Part shown: piece by piece, positions 14,285 to 53,671 of the stretch
Layout: each line of letters begins with the position of its first letter
How positions within the stretch are numbered: the first letter of the stretch is position 1
Program-made: the position numbers and the translations under genes
Assembly (NCBI GenBank): GCA_018110925.1
Contig: JAGAZJ010000021.1
Span: 1 to 54,893, forward strand
DNA length: 54,893 nt
Direction of reading: 5' to 3'
Origin: Oscillospiraceae bacterium
Lineage (GTDB): Bacteria; Bacillota; Clostridia; Oscillospirales; Ruminococcaceae
Notes under the pieces: generated by a model
What the model was told of the DNA's origin: nothing
What the model saw: the letters and a program-made list of their open reading frames with translations, nothing else
Databases searched by the model: none

Positions 14285-14313
14285 TTGAAAAATCCATATT
14301 ACTGTGCTATAAT
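14285..14313 (+). promoter_or_regulatory. Promoter of the ECF/ABC operon
   Basis: TTGAAA (14285-14290) and TATAAT (14308-14313) are 17 bases apart, and TG one base before the -10 makes an extended -10 element. This is one of the strongest promoters in the window and needs tight repression, which the iron box downstream would supply. Confidence 0.75.
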
Positions 14314-14348
14314 ATATATCGCCTTTGTAAAGGGCAAATATTTATGTT

Positions 14349-14367
14349 TTAAGTTAGCCTAATCTAA
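14349..14367 (+). promoter_or_regulatory. DtxR/IdeR-type iron box
   Basis: The 19-bp site TTAAGTTAGCCTAATCTAA matches the DtxR/IdeR consensus TWAGGTWAGSCTWACCTWA at 17 positions and contains the palindromic arms AGTTAG/CTAACT. It lies in the leader, three bases before the GGAGGT ribosome binding site of the first operon gene, where a bound metalloregulator would block elongation. The similarity is to the published consensus as remembered; no DtxR-family gene is in this window. Confidence 0.65.
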
Positions 14368-14380
14368 CTCGGAGGTAATT

Positions 14381-14947
14381 ATGAAAGGTAAAGATCTGAT
14401 AAACATTGGTATTTTTTCTGCGATCTATTTCATCATATTGTTCGCAGTGGCAATGCTTGGCTTCATACCAATATTCCTGCCGCTCCTTACCGTGTTTGTA
14501 CCCATAATAGGCGGCATTCCCTTCATGCTGTTTCTTACAAGGGTCAAGAAATTCGGCATGATATGGATAATGAGCGTCATAATGGGCATCCTCATGCTCC
14601 TGACAGGTATGAGCTGGCCGCCGCTCGTAGTATCGGCAGTGAGCGGTCTGATAGCCGAGCTCGTGTATAAGAGCGGCAATTACAGGAGCGCATCAAAAGC
14701 CGTTCTCACAAACGGCGTGTTCAGCCTCTGGGTGGCCGCAAACTACCTGCCGCTGTTCTTCGCCGCCGAAAAATACTGGTCGTCAAGACAGAATTTCGGT
14801 CAGGACTATATAGACACGGTCACAAAGCTGATGCCCGTATGGATGTGCCCCGTGCTATTCGTCGTATCCTTCGTTTGCGGCATAATAGGCGGATTTTTGG
14901 GCAGAGCGCTTATGAAAAAGCACTTTGAGAAGGCCTGTATAGCATGA
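14381..14947 (+). CDS. MptD/Trep_Strep-family ECF transporter S component
   Basis: A 188-residue integral membrane protein with five or six hydrophobic segments and few charged residues inside them, matching the MptD (Trep_Strep) family of substrate-binding S components of energy-coupling-factor importers. It should bind the transported molecule in the membrane and dock on the EcfT/EcfA module encoded four and five genes downstream. GGAGGT lies four bases before the ATG. It opens a six-gene operon and overlaps the AraC gene by four bases. Known S components of this family are poorly characterised; together with the iron box and the two exporter-fold ABC proteins, an iron chelate or related metallophore is the most plausible substrate. 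Confidence 0.8.
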   Translation: MKGKDLINIGIFSAIYFIILFAVAMLGFIPIFLPLLTVFVPIIGGIPFMLFLTRVKKFGMIWIMSVIMGILMLLTGMSWPPLVVSAVSGLIAELVYKSGNYRSASKAVLTNGVFSLWVAANYLPLFFAAEKYWSSRQNFGQDYIDTVTKLMPVWMCPVLFVVSFVCGIIGGFLGRALMKKHFEKACIA

Positions 14948-15918
14948 ATGACCTTTTTGACCGCCTTGACAGAGCGGGCTTCGGCTCTAATGTGCATGAG
15001 GTAGCCGCCGACGGAGAATGCAGGGTACTGCGGCTCGATGACGGGTCGGGCGAGGGTTTCATGACCATGTACCGTGTGTTTGAGGGCATATACCTGATGT
15101 ACAATGACTTTCACCTCAGAGAATGCATTTCGGAGTATCAGAATGCAGAAACGGTGCTATGTATAGATCACTGCCGTGAGGGCAGGATAGAGCATGAGAA
15201 CGCAATGGGCGGCAGGTACTATATGGAGGCGGGCGATATGCGCATAGACAAACGTGTTCACCATGCGGGCAAAGTCGAGATGCCCCTCTGTCATTACCAC
15301 GGCATCACTATCGGCTTCATAAAAGAGCTGGCGGACAGAGCTATCCGAAGAGAATTCCCGTTCCTGCACACAGACCTTGCCGCTCTCGCAGACAAGTTCT
15401 GTCACGATGACAGAGAATACCTCATCCGTACGAATGAAACATTCAACCTCATTTTCGGTCAGCTCTATCATGCACCCAAGAGCATAAGGCTCAATTACTT
15501 CAAGGTAAAGACAGCAGAGCTGCTCCTGCTCCTTGATGCGGCAGACCCAACACAGAACAGCGAGCAGAGGCAGTATTTCCCCGCAAGTCAGACCGACAGG
15601 GTAAAGAAGGTACATTCCATCATAACGACAGACCTGGAAAGATCCTACACCGCCGACGAACTGGCAGAGCTGTCGGGTATGCCTGCCGCAACGTTCAGAA
15701 AGGTATTCAGAGCAGTTTACGGCGCACCCGTATACCGGTACATCAAAGACTTCAAGATGAAAGCCGCCGCCGCTATGCTCATATCGCAAAGAGATCTGAA
15801 TATCTCTGAGATAGCCCAGCGGACGGGATATGACAATGCTTCAAAATTCTCTGCGGCATTCAGGGATGTCATGGGCACTACGCCCCAGAATTACAGAAAA
15901 AGACAGGAGGATATATAG
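14944..15918 (+). CDS. AraC family regulator within the ECF/ABC operon
   Basis: A 324-residue regulator. The first 200 residues form a ligand-sensing part (RVFEGIYLMYNDFHL, then CREGRIEHENAMGGRYY), and two helix-turn-helix motifs occupy about 225-322, with LAELSGMPAATFRKVFRAVYG and ISEIAQRTGYDNASKFSAAF marking them. Its layout recalls the PchR/YbtA group, AraC regulators that sense ferric siderophores and activate the cognate import genes. The ATG overlaps the previous stop (ATGA) and the TAG stop shares one base with the GTG of the next gene, so translation is tightly coupled. Activation of its own operon when ligand is imported is the natural inference. Confidence 0.85.
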   Translation: MNDLFDRLDRAGFGSNVHEVAADGECRVLRLDDGSGEGFMTMYRVFEGIYLMYNDFHLRECISEYQNAETVLCIDHCREGRIEHENAMGGRYYMEAGDMRIDKRVHHAGKVEMPLCHYHGITIGFIKELADRAIRREFPFLHTDLAALADKFCHDDREYLIRTNETFNLIFGQLYHAPKSIRLNYFKVKTAELLLLLDAADPTQNSEQRQYFPASQTDRVKKVHSIITTDLERSYTADELAELSGMPAATFRKVFRAVYGAPVYRYIKDFKMKAAAAMLISQRDLNISEIAQRTGYDNASKFSAAFRDVMGTTPQNYRKRQEDI

Positions 15919-17669
15919 TGGGAAAGGACAGACACGGCTCATTCGGCTGGCTCCTCAGCCAGTCGGGAGAGCGCAGAGGTAAATTCATCGCAAGCGTACT
16001 GCTTGCGGCACTCAGTACCATATGCGGCATTGTGCCGTATTATTTTATTGCCCGTATAGTCAGGGGGCTGATTGAGGGCAGTACAGACAAGGGCGCATAT
16101 ATCACGGACTGCACGGCGATATGTCTTTTGTGGCTGGGTCATGCGCTGTTTCATGCGCTGTCTACCGCAAACTCACATCTGGCAACTTTCCACACCCTTG
16201 CGGTGATAAGAAAGAAAGCCCTTGACAAGCTGGCAAAGATGCCCCTCGGCAATGTGATAAACATACCGTCGGGAGCTCTCAAAAGCACGATAGTCGAGCG
16301 TATAGACAGCATAGAGACAACACTTGCTCATATACTTCCCGAATTCACAACGGGTATCGGTGCGCCCGTGATAATACTCATATACGCCTTTGTGATAAAC
16401 TGGAAACTGGGTCTTGCGTCACTTATCACCGTTCCTCTCGGGATAGTGTGCTATATGCTCATGATGTACGGCTATGAGGAGAACTACGGCAGGACAGTCA
16501 GAGCCACGAAAGCCCTCAACGCCGTCACCACGGAATACATAAACGGCATAGAGGTCATAAAGGTATTCGGCAAGGCGCAGTCAAGCTATGAAAAATTCTC
16601 AGCTGCCGCAAAGGAGAGCGCTGACAGCTTTGTGAACTGGATGCGCTCCTGCAACGTGTATATGACCTTTGCTATGTGCATAATGCCCGCAACGATGCTG
16701 TCCGTACTGCCCATAGGCGGTATAATGACCATGCACGGGACCATAAGCACAGCAGACTTTATCACCGTGATAATCCTGACAGTCGGACTTATTGAGCCCG
16801 TTATCGGCGTAATGTCCTATTCGGACGACATCGCACAGATGGACACCATCGTCACCGAAGTGCGTTCCGTGATAGATGCGCCCGAGATGCACCGTCCCGA
16901 AAAGCTCAACAAGACCATGCAGGGCGGCGACATCGTGCTTGATGATGTACATTTCGGCTACTCGGGAGATGAGATACTCCACGGCATATCCATGACCATC
17001 CGCAAGGGTGAATTTGTCGCACTGGTAGGCCCGTCGGGCAGCGGCAAGTCCACCGTGGCAAGGCTTATCGCCAGCCTGTGGGACACCGACAGCGGCAGTA
17101 TATCCTACGGAGGAGTGGATATAAAGGACATACCCCTTGATGACTACAACGACAGGATCGCATTTGTTTCACAGGACAACTATCTCTTTGACCTGACCGT
17201 GCGTGAAAATATACGTCTCGGCAGGCAGTCCGCCACTGATGCGGAGGTCGAGGAAGCGGCAAGGAAATGCGGCTGCCACGATTTCATCATGTGGCTTGAA
17301 AATGGCTACGATACGACAGTGGGCAATTCAGGCGGACATCTTTCGGGCGGTGAGCGCCAGCGTATCGCCATAGCAAGGGCTATGCTCAAAAACGCTGACA
17401 TCATCATCCTCGACGAAGCAACTGCGTATACAGACCCCGAGAACGAGGCTGTCATACAGAAAAGCGTGGCGAAGCTGGTCGAGGGCAAGACGCTCATCGT
17501 TATCGCTCACAGGCTCTCCACGGTCAAGAACGCCGACAGGCTCTATGTCATAAAGGACGGCAATATCGCAGAGCAGGGCACACATGAGGAGCTTCTGAAA
17601 ATGAACGGTCTATACAATTCAATGTGGGCGGCACATATCTCGGCAAAGGACGGTGATGAGAATGTTTAA
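15918..17669 (+). CDS. ABC half-transporter with exporter fold, YbtP/IrtA-like
   Basis: A 583-residue fusion of six membrane helices (about residues 15-300) and an ATPase domain with Walker A GPSGSGKST (371-379), Q-loop FVSQDNYLF, signature LSGGERQ, Walker B IIILDEA and H-loop AHRLST. Half-transporters of this kind work as dimers, here surely with the next gene product. Although built like exporters, YbtPQ and IrtAB import siderophores, and the setting (iron box, AraC regulator, partner half-transporter) matches theirs. The D-loop region reads EATAYTDPENE, shared in outline with the partner. Translation starts at GTG, overlapping the preceding TAG by one base. Export of a small molecule remains an alternative. 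Confidence 0.88.
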   Translation: MGKDRHGSFGWLLSQSGERRGKFIASVLLAALSTICGIVPYYFIARIVRGLIEGSTDKGAYITDCTAICLLWLGHALFHALSTANSHLATFHTLAVIRKKALDKLAKMPLGNVINIPSGALKSTIVERIDSIETTLAHILPEFTTGIGAPVIILIYAFVINWKLGLASLITVPLGIVCYMLMMYGYEENYGRTVRATKALNAVTTEYINGIEVIKVFGKAQSSYEKFSAAAKESADSFVNWMRSCNVYMTFAMCIMPATMLSVLPIGGIMTMHGTISTADFITVIILTVGLIEPVIGVMSYSDDIAQMDTIVTEVRSVIDAPEMHRPEKLNKTMQGGDIVLDDVHFGYSGDEILHGISMTIRKGEFVALVGPSGSGKSTVARLIASLWDTDSGSISYGGVDIKDIPLDDYNDRIAFVSQDNYLFDLTVRENIRLGRQSATDAEVEEAARKCGCHDFIMWLENGYDTTVGNSGGHLSGGERQRIAIARAMLKNADIIILDEATAYTDPENEAVIQKSVAKLVEGKTLIVIAHRLSTVKNADRLYVIKDGNIAEQGTHEELLKMNGLYNSMWAAHISAKDGDENV

Positions 17670-19395
17670 GATACTCAAAAACTTCTTTGACTTCTGCGGT
17701 GAAGAGGACAGAAAGAGGTTCTATACCTCCATTATACTTAGCTTTGTCACAGCGATGTTCGAGGCACTGAAAATACCTGCCATAGCCTGCATGGTCAAGG
17801 CACTGCTTGAGGGCAGCGTGACATCTGCGACCTGCCTTACCTGTCTCGGCATAATGCTTGTGAGCATCATAGGCGCAGGGATCTTCAAGTCAAAAGCAAC
17901 CATGCTCCAGACAGAGGGCGGCTATAATACCTGCGCTCACAAGCGCATGAAGCTCGCTGAGCATCTGCGTTATCTGCCCATGGGCTACTACAACGAGAAC
18001 AGTCTCGGTCACATAATGTCTGTTACCACTAACACCATGCAGAACCTTGAAAATGTTGCGACAAGAGTTGTCATGATTGTTTGCTCGGGTCTTCTCACAA
18101 CTGCTGTGATAACAGTTATGATACTGTTTTTCGACTGGCGGATCGGACTTGTGCTCTGCGTCGGTCTTGTGGTGTTCTTCCTCATAAACAGCGGCATGAT
18201 GAAAGTATCGGCAGGTATGGCAAAGCAGAAGCTGGAAAAGGACTCCGCACTTGTTGCCAAAGTAATAGAATACATACAGGGCATATCAGAGGTAAAGGCA
18301 TTCCGTCTCACTGGAGAAAGGAGCCGTGACCTTAACATAGCCATAGACGAGAATGAGCACGCCAATTCCGCAATGGAGCTGAAGCTTATACCGTTTATGA
18401 CCATGCAGAGCTTCTGGCTCAAAGGCGTCGGCACTCTGATCGTGCTCATATCCGTGCTTCTGCACACGGGCGGAAATATGGATCTGCTCACCACGATCAT
18501 AATGATAATAAGCTCATACATGATATACGCACAGCTTGACAACGCAGGCAAATACTCCGCACTGCTGAGGACTGTCGATGTCAGTGTTCGTCAGGCACAG
18601 GAGATACTGGATACACCTCAGATGGACATTTCAGGCGATGACATCACCCCTGCGCACTTCAATATCTCCGCAGAGAACATTACCTTTGCCTATGAGAAAA
18701 AGTCCGTCATAAACGGCATATCCCTCGATATACCCGAACGCACGACCACCGCAATAGTCGGCCCGTCGGGAGGAGGAAAGACGACTCTCACCTCACTGCT
18801 CTCACGTTTCTGGGATGTTGACAGCGGCAAAGTAACTCTGGACGGCAGAGATGTTCGTGAATACAGCATGGATGCTCTTATGAGAAATTACAGCTTCGTG
18901 TTCCAAAAGGTATATCTCTTTGCAGACACCATAGCAAACAATATCCGCTTCGGTCAGCCCGATGCGCCTATGGAGAAGGTCATAGAGGCAGCAAAAAAGG
19001 CCTGCTGTCACGATTTTATAACAAAGCTCCCCGATGGTTACGACACTGTTATAGGCGAGGGCGGTGCTTCACTTTCGGGCGGAGAGAAACAGCGCATATC
19101 CATAGCCCGTGCCATAATGAAGGATGCTCCCGTTATCGTACTCGACGAAGCCACCGCAAATGTTGACCCCGAGAACGAAGCTGAACTCATGAAGGCAGTG
19201 GAGGCTCTCACAAAGGAGAAGACCATCATTATGATCGCCCACAGGCTCAAAACGGTCAGAAACGCCGACCAGATACTTGTCATAGACAGCGGCAGGATAG
19301 CACAGCAGGGAACGCACGAAAGCCTTATGAGCGAGGACGGCATATACCGCACATTCGTTGAGAGCAGGCGTGAAGCCGCATCGTGGAGACTGTAA
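17656..19395 (+). CDS. ABC half-transporter with exporter fold, YbtQ/IrtB-like
   Basis: A 579-residue half-transporter with six membrane helices and an ATPase domain carrying Walker A GPSGGGKTT near residue 370, signature LSGGEKQ, Walker B VIVLDEA and H-loop AHRLKT. It overlaps the previous gene by 14 bases, typical of a heterodimer pair made in equal amounts. Three starts are possible (GTG 17653, ATG 17656, ATG 17662); 17656 is chosen for its distance of five bases from AAGGA. As with its partner, import of a ferric siderophore is the favoured role by analogy with YbtQ and IrtB, while drug or peptide export is the alternative. Confidence 0.88.
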   Translation: MRMFKILKNFFDFCGEEDRKRFYTSIILSFVTAMFEALKIPAIACMVKALLEGSVTSATCLTCLGIMLVSIIGAGIFKSKATMLQTEGGYNTCAHKRMKLAEHLRYLPMGYYNENSLGHIMSVTTNTMQNLENVATRVVMIVCSGLLTTAVITVMILFFDWRIGLVLCVGLVVFFLINSGMMKVSAGMAKQKLEKDSALVAKVIEYIQGISEVKAFRLTGERSRDLNIAIDENEHANSAMELKLIPFMTMQSFWLKGVGTLIVLISVLLHTGGNMDLLTTIIMIISSYMIYAQLDNAGKYSALLRTVDVSVRQAQEILDTPQMDISGDDITPAHFNISAENITFAYEKKSVINGISLDIPERTTTAIVGPSGGGKTTLTSLLSRFWDVDSGKVTLDGRDVREYSMDALMRNYSFVFQKVYLFADTIANNIRFGQPDAPMEKVIEAAKKACCHDFITKLPDGYDTVIGEGGASLSGGEKQRISIARAIMKDAPVIVLDEATANVDPENEAELMKAVEALTKEKTIIMIAHRLKTVRNADQILVIDSGRIAQQGTHESLMSEDGIYRTFVESRREAASWRL

Positions 19396-19396
19396 C

Positions 19397-20140
19397 ATGA
19401 CGGGACTATTCACGGCGGATGTGGAGAACAGAGGACTTGTCCTCGATCCGAGGACAAAACTGTTCGTAATGATAACGCTGGTGGTATTTGCCCTTGGCAA
19501 TACGGGCAGTGACATAGCGGCAGTAAAATATGCCACTGTCGTGCTTTGCCTTTTGCCCGTGATACTTCTTTGCACGGCAAGGCAGTATAAGAGAGCGGCA
19601 TTATCGGGGCTGGTCTATACTTTGATGAAGACGGTGGAGATGTTCTGTATGCCCCATATGACAGGTATGATCCTGAGTCTCATCGGTCTGTGCTGCCTGA
19701 TATTCGTGCGGCTTATGCCGGGGCTCATAATGGGCGCATATATGCTCTCATCGACGACGGTGAGCGAATTCATCGCCGCAATGCACCGTATGCACATACC
19801 CCGGCAGATAACCATACCGATGTCTGTGATGTTCAGGTTTTTCCCGACGGTGTTCGAGGAATTTTCGTCGATAAACACTGCGATGAAAATGCGTGATATA
19901 CGGATAGGTGGAAAAAACTCGGGCAAGTTCATCGAGTACCGGCTTGTGCCGCTGATGGTCTGCTCGGTGAATATAGGAAGCGAGCTGTCTGCGGCGGCTC
20001 TGACACGGGGGCTCGGCACTAAAGTGCGCCGCACCAATATATGCAGGATAGGATTTCATGTACAGGATGTCATAGTGCTGATTCTCTCATCTGCGCTGTA
20101 TGTGCTGTGGATACTCGGTCTGACAGGAGTGACAGGATGA
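19397..20140 (+). CDS. ECF transporter transmembrane component EcfT
   Basis: A 246-residue membrane protein of the EcfT/CbiQ family that couples ATP hydrolysis to the S component. It shows the expected order: an N-terminal segment VLDPRTKLFVM, four or five hydrophobic helices, and two coupling-helix motifs near MKMRDIRIG and AAALTRGLGT, the latter matching the Ala-Arg-Gly signature. The ATG at 19397 begins one base after the stop of the ABC gene, with GGAG nine bases upstream. The stop overlaps the EcfA start by four bases. It completes an ECF module with the S component at the head of the operon. Confidence 0.85.
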   Translation: MTGLFTADVENRGLVLDPRTKLFVMITLVVFALGNTGSDIAAVKYATVVLCLLPVILLCTARQYKRAALSGLVYTLMKTVEMFCMPHMTGMILSLIGLCCLIFVRLMPGLIMGAYMLSSTTVSEFIAAMHRMHIPRQITIPMSVMFRFFPTVFEEFSSINTAMKMRDIRIGGKNSGKFIEYRLVPLMVCSVNIGSELSAAALTRGLGTKVRRTNICRIGFHVQDVIVLILSSALYVLWILGLTGVTG

Positions 20141-21549
20141 GCGCTGTATTAAGGAATGTTTCTTTCAGATACGCAAACGGTGATACAGGCGCTCTCTGCG
20201 ATGTCAGCCTTGAAATAAGACAAGGTGAATGTGTACTTCTCTGCGGCAGTTCCGGATGCGGCAAAACAACGGTCACAAGGCTATTAAACGGGCTTATCCC
20301 ACATTATTACGAGGGTGAGCTCGATGGTGAGATCACGGTTTTCGGCAAGGACATACGCTCTGCCGCCATAGAAGACCTGGCAGGCACGGTGGGAAGTGTG
20401 TTCCAAAATCCTCGGAGCCAGTTTTTCTGTGTGGATACAACCGCAGAGATAGCATTCGGCTGTGAGAACATGGGTCTGCCGGAGAATGAGATACGCTCAC
20501 GCATGGACAGGACCGTTACCGAAATGAATATACGGCCGCTCCTTGACAGGAGCATATTCAGGCTCTCGGGCGGTGAAAAGCAGAAGATCGCCTGCGCCGG
20601 GGTAGCGGCTATGCTCCCTGAGCTTATCGTACTTGACGAACCCACATCAAATCTCGACCTTGATGCGATAGAGGAGCTGAAAGAGACGATACGCAGATGG
20701 CAGACACAGGGCAAGACCATCGTCATCGCAGAGCACCGTCTCGGCTGGCTGAACGGTCTCTGCACAAGAGTGCTGTTTATGGAAAACGGCCGAATATCTT
20801 CGGAGTTTGCGGGAGAGAGCTTTTTCTCACTGGACTCAGAAACGCTTTCAGGTATGGGTCTGCGGCCTGTATACACAAAGCACGATTATCTTGACAGCAG
20901 AACGGGGCTGTCCCGTATCAAGCCGTTTGATCAAAGAGATGTCATCACCCTCGAGAACTTCGTTTACAGCTACGGCAGACACACGGCGCTCAACATAGAC
21001 CGTCTGGAGATACCCACAGGCTCGGTAACTGCTGTCGTGGGTCACAATGGCGCAGGCAAATCCACATTCACAAAATGCCTGTGCGGTCTGCAAAAGGGCT
21101 TCAGAGGCACAGTGACAACAGGAAGGGCTTTGCGCCCGAAGGATATGATGGCTCTGTCTTATATGGTCATGCAGGACGTTAATCATCAGCTCTTTGCAGA
21201 GACCGTTATGGAGGAGATCATGCTCGGCGCCGATGATACAGACACTGACAAGGCACTCGACATACTGAACAGGCTGAACATATACGAATATAAGGACCGC
21301 CACCCCATGTCACTCTCAGGCGGACAGAAACAGCGTGTGGCTATCGCCTCCGCTCTGCTTGCAGGGAAGAAACTGCTGGTCTTTGACGAGCCCACCAGCG
21401 GTCTTGACCTGAGGAGCATGGAGTGTACCGCCGAACTTCTCAGCTCTCTCGGTAGCAATATCACCGTTCTTATCGTCACCCACGATATGGAGCTGATAGA
21501 CCGCTGCTGTACACATATACTTCACATTGAGGCAGGCAAAATCAATTGA
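20137..21549 (+). CDS. ECF transporter ATPase, two fused ABC domains
   Basis: A 470-residue protein with two ATPase domains in one chain, the fused form of EcfA and EcfA'. Domain 1 has Walker A GSSGCGKTT (37-45), LSGGEKQ and IVLDEPTSNLD; domain 2 has GHNGAGKST (302-310), LSGGQKQ and LVFDEPTSGLD, each with an H-loop (AEHRL, THDME). It should power the MptD-type S component through EcfT. The start at 20137 overlaps the EcfT stop as ATGA; a longer in-frame reading is rejected because it lies inside ecfT. It is the last gene before a strong terminator. Confidence 0.9.
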   Translation: MSAVLRNVSFRYANGDTGALCDVSLEIRQGECVLLCGSSGCGKTTVTRLLNGLIPHYYEGELDGEITVFGKDIRSAAIEDLAGTVGSVFQNPRSQFFCVDTTAEIAFGCENMGLPENEIRSRMDRTVTEMNIRPLLDRSIFRLSGGEKQKIACAGVAAMLPELIVLDEPTSNLDLDAIEELKETIRRWQTQGKTIVIAEHRLGWLNGLCTRVLFMENGRISSEFAGESFFSLDSETLSGMGLRPVYTKHDYLDSRTGLSRIKPFDQRDVITLENFVYSYGRHTALNIDRLEIPTGSVTAVVGHNGAGKSTFTKCLCGLQKGFRGTVTTGRALRPKDMMALSYMVMQDVNHQLFAETVMEEIMLGADDTDTDKALDILNRLNIYEYKDRHPMSLSGGQKQRVAIASALLAGKKLLVFDEPTSGLDLRSMECTAELLSSLGSNITVLIVTHDMELIDRCCTHILHIEAGKIN

Positions 21550-21565
21550 CTTAGCCGACACACAA

Positions 21566-21601
21566 AGCCATAGCTTCTGACACACATAAGAAGCTATGGC
21601 T
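21566..21601 (+). terminator. Bidirectional terminator after the ECF/ABC operon
   Basis: A perfect 13-pair stem AGCCATAGCTTCT / AGAAGCTATGGCT with a ten-base loop, followed by ATTTTAT on the plus strand and TTTGTG on the minus strand. It separates the operon from the convergent MFS gene. Confidence 0.85.
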
Positions 21602-51374: not shown

Positions 51375-53216
51375 TCACATAAAAAGGCTTGCTATGTGGT
51401 ATACTATGCAGGAAAGCACCAGTGCATTGCAGACATAGAACAATGCGACCCTGACGGTCCATTTCAGCGAATGTGACTCCTTGTAGGTGGTGGAAAGAGC
51501 CATAAGACAGGGAATGTTGAATGTTGTCGCAAACATGAAAGCAAGCGCCTCTGCGGGAGATATCGCCTGTATCATGACACTTCCGAGCATTGCGGTATCC
51601 GTTGGGGCGGTCTTTGCGTAGAAGGTCGCATCCATCAGCGAATTGTTACCCATGAATACAGCATTGAGTGTTCCGAGAACAGCTTCCTTGGCAAATGCGC
51701 CGCTTACGAACGCCATGAATGTCTGCCAGCCCATACCGAAGAAACGTGTGACAGGCTCAATGAACGTACCTACACGGTACAGCAGGCTGTTGTCTATATT
51801 GCCGTCTTTGCTGAACGAGAATACATAGAAAATAATTGATACCAGCGTTACTGTTCCGAGCGCTCTCTTAAAGATATCCAGCGCCTTGAAGAACGCCTCT
51901 TTTACGATATGTTTCCAATGTGCCTTGTGATAGGGAGGAAGCTCCATTATCATGCCGCTTCTTGTATCCCTGGGGGAAAGCTTTTTGCTGAACAGCTTTG
52001 AAACGATGACCATGGTGACGACCACATACAGAAGAATGCCGACACAAACGAGCATCGTCTGCCACCATGAGAAAAACATTCCCGATATCACGGGGATTAT
52101 CGACCAGATAGACGCACACGGTATTGCCCAGACGATGGACATGGCGAGCATCCTCTGCCCCCAGTTGTCCATTACCCTTGTTCCGCAGGCACCGCCGATG
52201 GTACATCCGAAGCCCATCAGCATGGGGCATATCGCCTTGCCCTGAAGCCCCAGCTTTGAGAGAAGCCCGTCAAACTGATATGCGGCACGGGCAAGGAAGC
52301 CTATCTCCTCCAGAAAACCGAATACGATGTTCACACCAAACACGAAGCTTGCCATTGATATGGTAAAGTAAAGCACATTCGGCAGCATCGTACTGAATAT
52401 GGACACGATCCACGGATGAACGTTCCAGCCCGTGAGGAGCTTATCAACAGGGTCATGCAGTAATCCCGGTATCATCTGACCCATGTGCATGAAGGGTATC
52501 ATGATTATCATGGCAACGATGAATGCCAGCAGCACGACACCGATACAGATGATCTTGCCCAGCAGGGGTCTTGTCATCAGGCGGTCAAAGCGAGACATCT
52601 TATACATCTTATCCGATGTTCCCGTTACATTTTGCAGAAGACTGCTCACCCATTCAAATTTCGCCTTGCTGTCCGACTTGACGTCCGCCTGTCCCTCCGG
52701 GGCGGTGACAGCCAGTTTGTGGGGCTTTTTCAGTTCGTCGGCTATCTGCTTTCTGAGCTTGTCATAGTCACGGGTATCGGTGGCATTGAAGGGCAGGACA
52801 GGGATGCCCAGCTTCTTTTCAAGTGCCTTTGCATCTATCTTTTTGCCCATGTCATTGGCAACATCCATCATATTGAGCACCAGTAATGCAGGTTTGTCGA
52901 GACCGGCAAACTCCGCCAGCATGAACATACTTCTTTCCAGCTGAGAAGCATCCACCAAAATGACCGTCAGTTCGCTCTGTCCCGACTTTATAAAATCGGT
53001 GGTGATTATCTCCTCATCAGAATTTCCGGAGAGGCCATAGCTTCCGGGAAGGTCTGTAACAGTATACTTAGTGCCGTTATAGGTGTAGACACCCTCATTC
53101 TTTTCAACGGTCTTGCCTGCCCAGTTGCCGACGTGCTGACGTGCTCCCGTAAGATTATTGAATATCGTGGATTTGCCTGAGTTCGGCTGTCCCAGAAGTG
53201 CGATACTGTTGCTCAT
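51375..53216 (-). CDS. feoB: Ferrous iron transporter FeoB
   Basis: A 613-residue iron transporter. The N-terminal GTPase has G1 GQPNSGKST (8-16), G3 DLPG and G4 NMMD, with TGARQHVGNWAGKTVE as switch region; the membrane part from about residue 215 has eight or nine helices and two gate regions. The conserved pore cysteine Cys338 is kept in GFGCTIGGACGTR, but this differs from the usual GCNVPAIMATR pattern. The length is below the 770 residues of E. coli FeoB, due to a short linker and no C-terminal cytoplasmic domain. The ATG overlaps the feoA-like stop by four bases. It imports Fe2+ under anaerobic conditions. Confidence 0.92.
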   Translation of the reverse strand: MSNSIALLGQPNSGKSTIFNNLTGARQHVGNWAGKTVEKNEGVYTYNGTKYTVTDLPGSYGLSGNSDEEIITTDFIKSGQSELTVILVDASQLERSMFMLAEFAGLDKPALLVLNMMDVANDMGKKIDAKALEKKLGIPVLPFNATDTRDYDKLRKQIADELKKPHKLAVTAPEGQADVKSDSKAKFEWVSSLLQNVTGTSDKMYKMSRFDRLMTRPLLGKIICIGVVLLAFIVAMIIMIPFMHMGQMIPGLLHDPVDKLLTGWNVHPWIVSIFSTMLPNVLYFTISMASFVFGVNIVFGFLEEIGFLARAAYQFDGLLSKLGLQGKAICPMLMGFGCTIGGACGTRVMDNWGQRMLAMSIVWAIPCASIWSIIPVISGMFFSWWQTMLVCVGILLYVVVTMVIVSKLFSKKLSPRDTRSGMIMELPPYHKAHWKHIVKEAFFKALDIFKRALGTVTLVSIIFYVFSFSKDGNIDNSLLYRVGTFIEPVTRFFGMGWQTFMAFVSGAFAKEAVLGTLNAVFMGNNSLMDATFYAKTAPTDTAMLGSVMIQAISPAEALAFMFATTFNIPCLMALSTTYKESHSLKWTVRVALFYVCNALVLSCIVYHIASLFM

Positions 53217-53434
53217 CTTTTATCTACCTCGATCCTTTCCGCATCTGCTCTGTTGAGAGAGATAAGTGTCTCTCTTACATAGATGAGCAGCGGCATATTC
53301 TTATCATTGCGCACCGTCTGAAACGGCGTTCCCTCCGTCATACCTATGGATGTGATACGATTCATGAAATGATCGTCACCGTTGAGTGACCGTATCATCC
53401 CCTGCATATCCGCAGTTGTTTCTGTAAGTTTCAT
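53213..53434 (-). CDS. feoA: FeoA domain protein
   Basis: A 73-residue small SH3-like protein of the FeoA family, thought to assist FeoB. The segment RITSIGMTEGTPFQTVRND is the family's typical core, followed by a strand MPLLIYVRETLISLNRADAERI. AGGAGGTACT precedes the ATG. It overlaps the feoB start by four bases and follows the Cys-rich membrane protein gene by 14 bases, the classical small Feo operon. Confidence 0.88.
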   Translation of the reverse strand: MKLTETTADMQGMIRSLNGDDHFMNRITSIGMTEGTPFQTVRNDKNMPLLIYVRETLISLNRADAERIEVDKR

Positions 53435-53448
53435 AGTACCTCCTGAGT

Positions 53449-53637
53449 TTATTTATCCCGATCCCTGTCGGGTCTAATCCTCATACACGAAGCGCATCCG
53501 CTGCACCCCGAGCATCCGCAGCCGCACCCTTTGCCTGCTTTTTTCTCTTTTATCTTGGCTCTGATGATAAAAGCGACTATCATCACGAGTGCGACGAGCA
53601 GAATGATCGACATGATATTTTCAGCAAGCCATGTCAT
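53449..53637 (-). CDS. FeoB-associated Cys-rich membrane protein
   Basis: A 62-residue protein with one membrane helix (about residues 8-27), a basic KIKEKKAGKG stretch and a tail GCGCGCSGCSGCASC with seven cysteines spaced by one or two residues. This is the build of the FeoB-associated Cys-rich (P12/FeoC-like in some annotations) proteins in Firmicutes. The cysteines could bind iron or a cluster at the inner face. AAAGGAGG lies six bases before the ATG. It opens the feo operon, just after an inverted repeat resembling the iron box of the ECF/ABC operon. Confidence 0.88.
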   Translation of the reverse strand: MTWLAENIMSIILLVALVMIVAFIIRAKIKEKKAGKGCGCGCSGCSGCASCMRIRPDRDRDK

Positions 53638-53655
53638 CTGTATCCTCCTTTAAAA

Positions 53656-53671
53656 TTAGCGTTAGCTAACC
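53656..53671 (-). promoter_or_regulatory. Inverted repeat upstream of the feo operon, possible metalloregulator site
   Basis: TTAGCGTTAGCTAACC contains the perfect palindrome GTTAGCTAAC (53661-53670), read on the minus strand as GGTTAGCTAACGCTAA. It lies six bases before the ribosome binding site AAAGGAGG, the same place as the DtxR/IdeR-like box of the ECF/ABC operon, with which it shares GTTAGC and CTAA. No clear -35/-10 pair was found in the 74-base gap to the tetR gene. Confidence 0.5.

Follow-up and report, generated by a model that had tools for sequence, protein, structure and literature searches.

The stretch of DNA considered here, called the window throughout, is contig JAGAZJ010000021.1 of the Oscillospiraceae bacterium assembly GCA_018110925.1 in its full length of 54,893 nucleotides. 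It is contig C17 of genome G000 (1.67 Mb, 69.25% complete); G labels denote genomes and L labels denote loci, G000 being the window's own genome. The subject is an operon of six genes at positions 14381-21549, all on the + strand and with neighbours overlapping or touching, which encode the S component of an energy-coupling factor (ECF) transporter, an AraC-family regulator, two exporter-fold ATP-binding cassette (ABC) half-transporters, EcfT and EcfA, and which probably form an iron-repressed system for the import of a metallophore.

The S component (14381..14947) belongs to the Trep_Strep/MptD family (PF09605, E 9.9e-63; TIGR02185, 164.9 bits against a cut-off of 76.45), and the AraC-family regulator (14944..15918) matches PF12833 (E 2.3e-20). 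The two half-transporters, ABC1 (15918..17669) and ABC2 (17653..19395), have GTG starts and match both PF00664 and PF00005; the Pfam search of the operon proteins found no IrtA-type siderophore-interaction domain in them. They are followed by EcfT of the CbiQ family (19397..20140, ATG start; PF02361, E 2.2e-17) and by EcfA with two fused ABC ATPase domains (20137..21549, ATG start; PF00005 in two stretches). The best TIGR matches of EcfA, TIGR04521 and TIGR04520, each fall in two stretches and each lie under their own cut-off. Longer open reading frame (ORF) alternatives exist for EcfT (TTG at 19358) and EcfA (20041), and the query proteins of these two carried one additional N-terminal residue. 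The co-encoding of S, T and two A domains is the layout of a dedicated ECF transporter, and the same clustering is seen in relatives. Ahead of the genes lies a promoter-like site of the sigma-70 type, TTGAAA-17-TATAAT (14285..14313, + strand), which agrees with the consensus at 11 of 12 positions. The first-pass annotation had described six tightly packed genes of these families behind a promoter; the ORF coordinates and the Pfam and TIGRFAM matches bear out the gene content, and the promoter-like site, as a consensus match only, agrees with the promoter. A tRNA scan of the whole window found none.

Between the promoter-like site and the ribosome-binding site, 12 bp ahead of the S start codon, lies the 16-bp palindrome GTTAG-N6-CTAAC (14353..14368, + strand), classed by motif conservation as a putative DtxR iron box of the EqbA type. 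It overlaps a 19-bp IdeR-like site (14349..14367, + strand), which agrees at 17 of 19 positions with the IdeR consensus; this 19-mer is the only match in the window at three or fewer mismatches, and none arose in 100 shuffles. An initial scan with the IdeR 19-mer ahead of S genes yielded mediocre matches; those of the Ruminococcus group stood, for the most part, 10-19 bp ahead of the start codon. The palindromic motif was derived from the S upstream regions before the published EqbA operator was compared with it. For the upstream counts, S genes with less than 100 bp upstream were left out, and from the box counts and locus-order counts L020 was dropped, being on the same contig as L038.

A perfect box with a gap of six is present within 200 bp upstream of 61 of 100 S genes, and a box with at most one mismatch upstream of 72, while every other gap from 0 to 13 occurs at zero mismatches in at most one of the 100 regions. 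Upstream of the other cassette genes the box is found at T in 0/91, ABC2 in 0/84, AraC in 0/39, A in 1/106 and ABC1 in 23/83 cases, the last of which would fit loci where the ABC pair starts an operon of its own. Among the 25 Ruminococcus-type operons, the palindrome is perfect in 18 and has at most one mismatch in all 25; its inner six bases are weakly conserved (0.09-0.56 bits), and the flanks are likewise weak. The IdeR 19-mer has two mismatches in the window and 4-9 in the other 24 of these operons, and its 17/19 match in the window is therefore partly coincidence. A classical IdeR box as the operator was rejected, because the 19-mer is not conserved in orthologous operons. The 19-bp DtxR/IdeR site of the first-pass annotation is thus real as a match, but the part that is conserved is the 16-bp palindrome.

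In Streptococcus equi, a 36-bp palindrome with the core GTTAGATGTATCTAAC lies ahead of eqbB (Heather et al. 2008, PMC3672683). In electrophoretic mobility shift assays, fragments without this palindrome were not shifted by the DtxR-like protein rEqbA, and the authors describe the EqbA operator as unlike other iron boxes (PMC3672683). Judged by the motif, the operator of the operon is of this EqbA type and not a classical IdeR box. The proposed control by a DtxR-family iron box is supported by the conservation of the box and by the EqbA operator core. Among the papers listed by literature searches, none described an iron box of the form GTTAG-N6-CTAAC in any organism but S. equi, which does not prove that there is none. 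In Treponema/Spirochaetales loci (for example, L076, L078, L088 and L094), two tandem boxes 23 bp apart stand before S.

Over sets of whole genomes, the box is also more frequent than the reversed pattern. Perfect boxes number 79 in eight genomes, compared with 7 occurrences of the reversed pattern, and 269 compared with 108 in 61 genomes of the family. Counted per genome, the box is commoner than the reversed pattern in 39, rarer in 15 and equally frequent in 7 (Wilcoxon p 2e-6, with the genomes treated as independent of kinship). At 16 of 29 box loci from the search of the 61 genomes, a match to FeoA/FeoB, flavodoxin or DtxR is present within a stretch of at most 3 kb; the corresponding chance rate would be about 1% by a rough estimate that assumes a few such genes in every 2-3 Mb. 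The neighbours of boxes include feoB in G090, feoB with two boxes in Ruminococcus flavefaciens XPD3002, another FeoB-like gene in the latter, FeoA in G017, flavodoxin and DUF2325. Box neighbours without an obvious iron role in G000 include an M18 aminopeptidase gene; a prephenate dehydratase gene of G000 also adjoins a box, which falls within an overlapping frame as well.

The window itself contains a second box with one mismatch (53655..53670, - strand), just before the ribosome-binding site of a feo operon (51375..53637, - strand). This operon encodes a FeoB-associated Cys-rich protein (53449-53637; PF12669), FeoA (53213-53434; PF04023) and FeoB (51375-53216; PF02421), and its box supports the reading of GTTAG-N6-CTAAC as a putative iron box. 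Elsewhere in G000, contig C8 (L133, 467-5102) carries a second AraC gene with two half-transporter genes, between which and the AraC gene lies a perfect box; no ECF genes were seen beside them. Two further loci of G000, L138 (C32, 3541-4029) and L135 (C19, 3454-3951), encode small membrane proteins, similar by eye and with no Pfam match, each directly behind a perfect box.

PF02742, the mark of a DtxR protein, was found in 15 of 16 genomes searched, G000 being the sole exception. At three loci the gene lies at the end of the cassette: in L029 (G116) a 123-aa DtxR gene begins just after ABC2, in L027 (G140) a DtxR gene overlaps the end of EcfA, and in L022 (G137) about 18 bp separate the start of a DtxR match from the end of ABC2. 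The proteins of L029 and L027 have DNA-binding and metal/dimer domains only, which appears in line with the published domain make-up of EqbA, a protein without the SH3-like fold (PMC3672683). Within G000, a DtxR protein of G090 has no match, and a PF01325 match on contig C29 was rejected as the missing DtxR gene, because it falls, as we read the sequence, within a short gene of the GntR type that precedes an ABC gene. G090 carries its DtxR gene in the recA neighbourhood; this neighbourhood is uninformative in G000, because a different gene comes after recA there. The repressor gene is presumably encoded in the missing third of G000. A DtxR/IdeR gene, whose co-occurrence had been suggested as a check, is thus seen in the 15 other genomes searched and was not found in the assembled part of G000.

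The likeness of the two half-transporters to YbtPQ and IrtAB, noted in the first-pass annotation, is supported by comparison with the chains of solved structures. Among single half-transporters in the PDB, ABC1 and ABC2 alike match 6p6i_A best and IrtA next. Chain A of 6p6i is taken by us to be YbtP, and chain B of the related entry 8vsi is labelled YbtQ in the PDB listing. ABC1 scores 309.7 bits with 6p6i_A and 254.2 with TM288, the best outside YbtPQ/IrtA; ABC2 scores 281.0 with 6p6i_A and 258.9 with MsbA, respectively. Nearness here means match scores to PDB chains, and double-length ABCB1-type chains, aligning in two stretches, outscore the half-transporters. As a control, the matched regions of two other G000 exporters were compared in the same way; their best half-transporters were TM288 and TM287, and YbtPQ and IrtA were absent among the 60 matches listed.

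The genetics of S. equi bears on the division of labour between the two transporters. Deletion of eqbHIJ prevented the iron-toxicity phenotype of an eqbA mutant and lowered 55Fe, while deletion of eqbKL did not prevent that phenotype; medium from an eqbKL mutant gave twofold less streptonigrin sensitivity, which the authors read as possible efflux (PMC3672683). From the gene order, eqbHIJ would be the S, T and A genes of an ECF-like transporter. By analogy, these results point to the ECF-like genes as the importer, with the ABC pair serving perhaps in efflux or recycling. The earlier suggestion that both transporters import the ligand is therefore doubtful, because in S. equi eqbHIJ, and not eqbKL, is needed for uptake.

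Matches to S at E 1e-20 are present in 15 of 148 family genomes, G000 counted. The closest S proteins, from a named-genome scan in which the best 80 loci of 544 relatives were kept, are 78-89% identical and come mostly from R. flavefaciens, R. albus and rumen Ruminococcus metagenome-assembled genomes. The gene order of the window, S-AraC-ABC1-ABC2-T-A, recurs elsewhere: 18 of the 95 loci show it, the window being one of them, and two loci with split matches bring the number to 20 when they are added. The order S-T-A-AraC-ABC-ABC is exact in three of the 95 loci and lies inside longer strings in three more. Where S is flanked by 6 kb of sequence on either side (55 loci), at least two same-strand ABC half-transporters are present within 6 kb of it in 42 cases, and some ABC pairs are 75-87% identical to that of the window. 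It appears from these loci that an exporter-type ABC partner is usual beside S.

A cassette of the order S-T-A-ABC-ABC is carried by a mobilizable plasmid of Corynebacterium aurimucosum (NZ_CP068167.1; L200, 8138). No synthesis gene is among its 13 listed features, in an incomplete table and with 17.8 of 20.7 kb covered. This cassette lies behind TTAGGTAAGCCTTACCTTT, which has four mismatches to the IdeR/DtxR 19-mer, the best of 300 shuffles having six. A complete genome of the window's genus, G090, has at L141 (4010-5204) a box, an S remnant of 62 aa without the middle, an AraC gene and an ABC1 trace of only 28 aa, with no ABC, T or A gene seen in the stretch; by its sequence, this locus is apparently a decayed cassette.

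Nonribosomal peptide synthetase (NRPS) and polyketide synthase (PKS) genes are present beside few of the cassettes. Homologues of the NRPS/PKS proteins of R. flavefaciens FD-1 and R. albus were not found in the window at E 1e-5, in agreement with the earlier statement that no biosynthesis genes adjoin the operon. Three of 96 loci have NRPS/PKS-like matches nearby, and for one of the three the only match is thioesterase-like; this count is a lower bound, because several contigs are short. It thus seems that equibactin-type cassettes seldom have synthesis genes beside them. In FD-1 the NRPS/PKS cluster is divergent from the cassette, with one box before the first cluster gene and another before S, and in R. 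albus 8 such a cluster has a box before the thioesterase gene and an EcfA-like gene alongside. These two (L146/L147 on FD-1 C26, L144/L145 on R. albus 8 C27) are candidate metallophore clusters behind an iron box. Literature searches on NRPS or siderophores in R. flavefaciens gave no paper naming the species among the top matches of a far larger set.

Condensation domains were found in all seven named Ruminococcus genomes examined, but in none of 10 of the 15 S-bearing family genomes, including the 100%-complete G019, and the IucA/IucC domain in 0/23 genomes; other metallophore synthesis types were not searched for. The NRPS on contig C12 of G000 has three adenylation and two condensation domains and ends in a reductase-type domain; its 20-kb stretch contains no box, even with one mismatch allowed. 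On these grounds it was judged unlikely to be the siderophore synthetase. A further NRPS match on C20 is below the cut-off. Use of a foreign siderophore by the relatives without condensation and IucA/IucC domains is supported by these domain searches, and for the window's genome the same use may be supposed. The earlier claim that the metallophore is made by another organism hence is supported for relatives such as G019; for the 69%-complete G000 it is a presumption, and the FD-1 cassette adjoins NRPS/PKS genes.

The operon is, with good confidence, an iron-repressed import cassette of the equibactin type for a metallophore, itself free of synthesis genes, so that metallophore uptake, the role first proposed for it, is supported as the likeliest one. 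This reading draws on what was observed of gene content, box conservation, the linkage to iron genes and DtxR, and the solved half-transporters closest to ABC1 and ABC2. With ample iron, a short DtxR repressor of the EqbA kind, loaded with Fe2+, would bind GTTAG-N6-CTAAC and block transcription, and when iron is scarce it would release the box. The AraC protein probably senses the imported ligand and boosts expression, a role also proposed for YbtA. The ferric metallophore would be captured outside the cell by the S component and driven inward by EcfT together with the fused EcfA. ABC1 and ABC2 would form a YbtPQ/IrtAB-like heterodimer acting on the same ligand which, by the S. equi genetics, would not be the main importer and most likely expels the stripped metallophore or offers a secondary route. 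If the pair works in efflux as eqbKL may, its retention in genomes free of condensation domains would suggest recycling or secondary import. The fully specified scheme for synthesis-free genomes, in which the ECF transporter takes up a ferric metallophore of foreign origin, the YbtPQ-like pair returns the stripped one to the outside for reuse, and the EqbA-type box controlling both is the general iron box of the family and is shared with Treponema, is offered tentatively and is less likely than not as a whole.

Several observations weigh against this reading. At one mismatch, boxes with gaps of 2 and 10 reach 13/100 and 14/100 S upstream regions, and 28/100 are without a gap-6 box even at one mismatch, among them many Lachnospiraceae copies sited behind the ABC pair. 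In 15 of the 61 family genomes the box is outnumbered by the reversed pattern; G019, a close relative by its S protein, has only four boxes compared with three reversed patterns; and at 13 of the 29 box loci no iron gene of the kinds looked for is present. Thirteen of the 55 well-covered loci lack a same-strand pair of half-transporters within 6 kb of S. Moreover, some ABC pairs are only about 34% identical to that of the window although S is about 70% identical, so that the pair is not a fixed partner and differs in its own lineage from locus to locus. The assembled part of G000 (69% complete) yielded no DtxR gene, and its C12 contig does carry one large NRPS. The kinship with eqb is drawn from gene functions and the operator. 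Finally, the ligand is one that we infer, as we do the direction of ABC1-ABC2, its formation of a heterodimer and the role of the AraC protein.

Among the rival explanations, it is unlikely, though less so than the others, that the species makes a siderophore of its own, from genes elsewhere in the genome, and exports it by the ABC pair. The divergent FD-1 cluster with boxes between it and the cassette, the R. albus 8 cluster with its boxed thioesterase gene and EcfA-like gene, the condensation domains of the seven named Ruminococcus genomes and the streptonigrin result with eqbKL-mutant medium (PMC3672683) would all fit such a scheme, and G000, being incomplete, may hold more genes than are seen. 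On the other hand, the one large NRPS of G000 is boxless and of the 3A-2C-reductase type, and one of similar size is carried by G090, in which the S gene is broken. Ten of the 15 S-bearing family genomes without a condensation domain, the 0/23 for IucA/IucC and the 3/96 loci with NRPS/PKS-like matches nearby, many loci being short, also speak against it.

It is still less probable that the ECF part takes in haem, or some other source of iron, in the manner of LhaSTA and that the ABC pair is an efflux pump unrelated to it that shares the iron control. LhaSTA is an ECF importer regulated by iron and specific for haem (PMC7299338), and the box argues for iron control but not for any ligand. However, the spectrum of LhaS suggested histidine ligation of haem (PMC7299338), whereas the window S protein has a single histidine, residue 181, near the C-terminus (a column with His in 13 of 15 S homologues, any other column having it in at most 5 of 15). 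Furthermore, NRPS/PKS genes lie beside the cassette in FD-1, equibactin-like genes do so in Clostridioides difficile, and ABC1 and ABC2 resemble siderophore importers. Haem as the ligand is therefore disfavoured. Least credible of the three, and highly improbable, is that the site is an ordinary IdeR/DtxR box with the gap-6 palindrome as its by-product: the 17/19 matches in the window favour this, but the 24 other operons depart from the IdeR 19-mer while all 25 retain the palindrome, the inner six bases carry little information, and the EqbA operator has the identical gap (PMC3672683).

With the operon read as a metallophore import cassette, it is suggested that a siderophore importer is carried by many anaerobes of the rumen and gut (Ruminococcus, Lachnospiraceae, Treponema), with synthesis seldom at the same locus. 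The synthesis-free cassettes open the role of the ABC pair to testing, since a pair in a cell that makes no siderophore cannot be there to export one of its own. The operator, which was found described for one streptococcal mobile element only, is now tied to feo, flavodoxin and dtxR across the family. The import cassette is a variant of the known equibactin kind; more of the novelty lies in the EqbA-type iron box that recurs across the family.

The closest known system is the equibactin locus eqbA-N on ICESe2 of S. equi, which likewise has importer genes (eqbHIJ) and YbtPQ-like genes (eqbKL), shares the operator core GTTAG-N6-CTAAC with the window and has the DtxR-like EqbA (PMC3672683). Its NRPS genes adjoin and EqbA lies upstream (PMC3672683), whereas the window has neither, and the window order S-AraC-ABC1-ABC2-T-A is unlike that of eqb. 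The kinship with this locus that was proposed earlier is supported by the ECF module, the YbtPQ-like pair and the EqbA-type operator, and the operon is described as working like the uptake half of equibactin, not as an equibactin locus, because no NRPS match adjoins it. In C. difficile clade 3, CD305_02401-02416 are annotated to include a membrane protein, Ecf, ABC ATPase, AraC, ABC and ABC (PMC6814731). The membrane protein would be the S component, which gives the order S-T-A-AraC-ABC-ABC; the cluster includes a DtxR/MntR-type gene (PMC6814731, Table 1) and, unlike the operon of the window, has genes for salicylate synthase, thiazolinyl imide reductase and NRPS beside it (PMC6814731). An NRPS cluster of Staphylococcus lugdunensis with a dedicated ECF transporter has also been likened to equibactin (PMC12709192). 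LhaSTA of the same species is an iron-regulated S, T and A module as in the window, but has a Fur box and haem as its ligand, and no ABC pair is mentioned in the part of the article available (PMC7299338). YbtPQ (yersiniabactin) and IrtAB (mycobactin) are exporter-fold siderophore importers (PMC10246721), and the Ybt system likewise has an AraC-type regulator (PMC3672683). In contrast to YbtPQ and IrtAB, the pair of the window is encoded together with an ECF importer and is without an IrtA-type siderophore-interaction domain.

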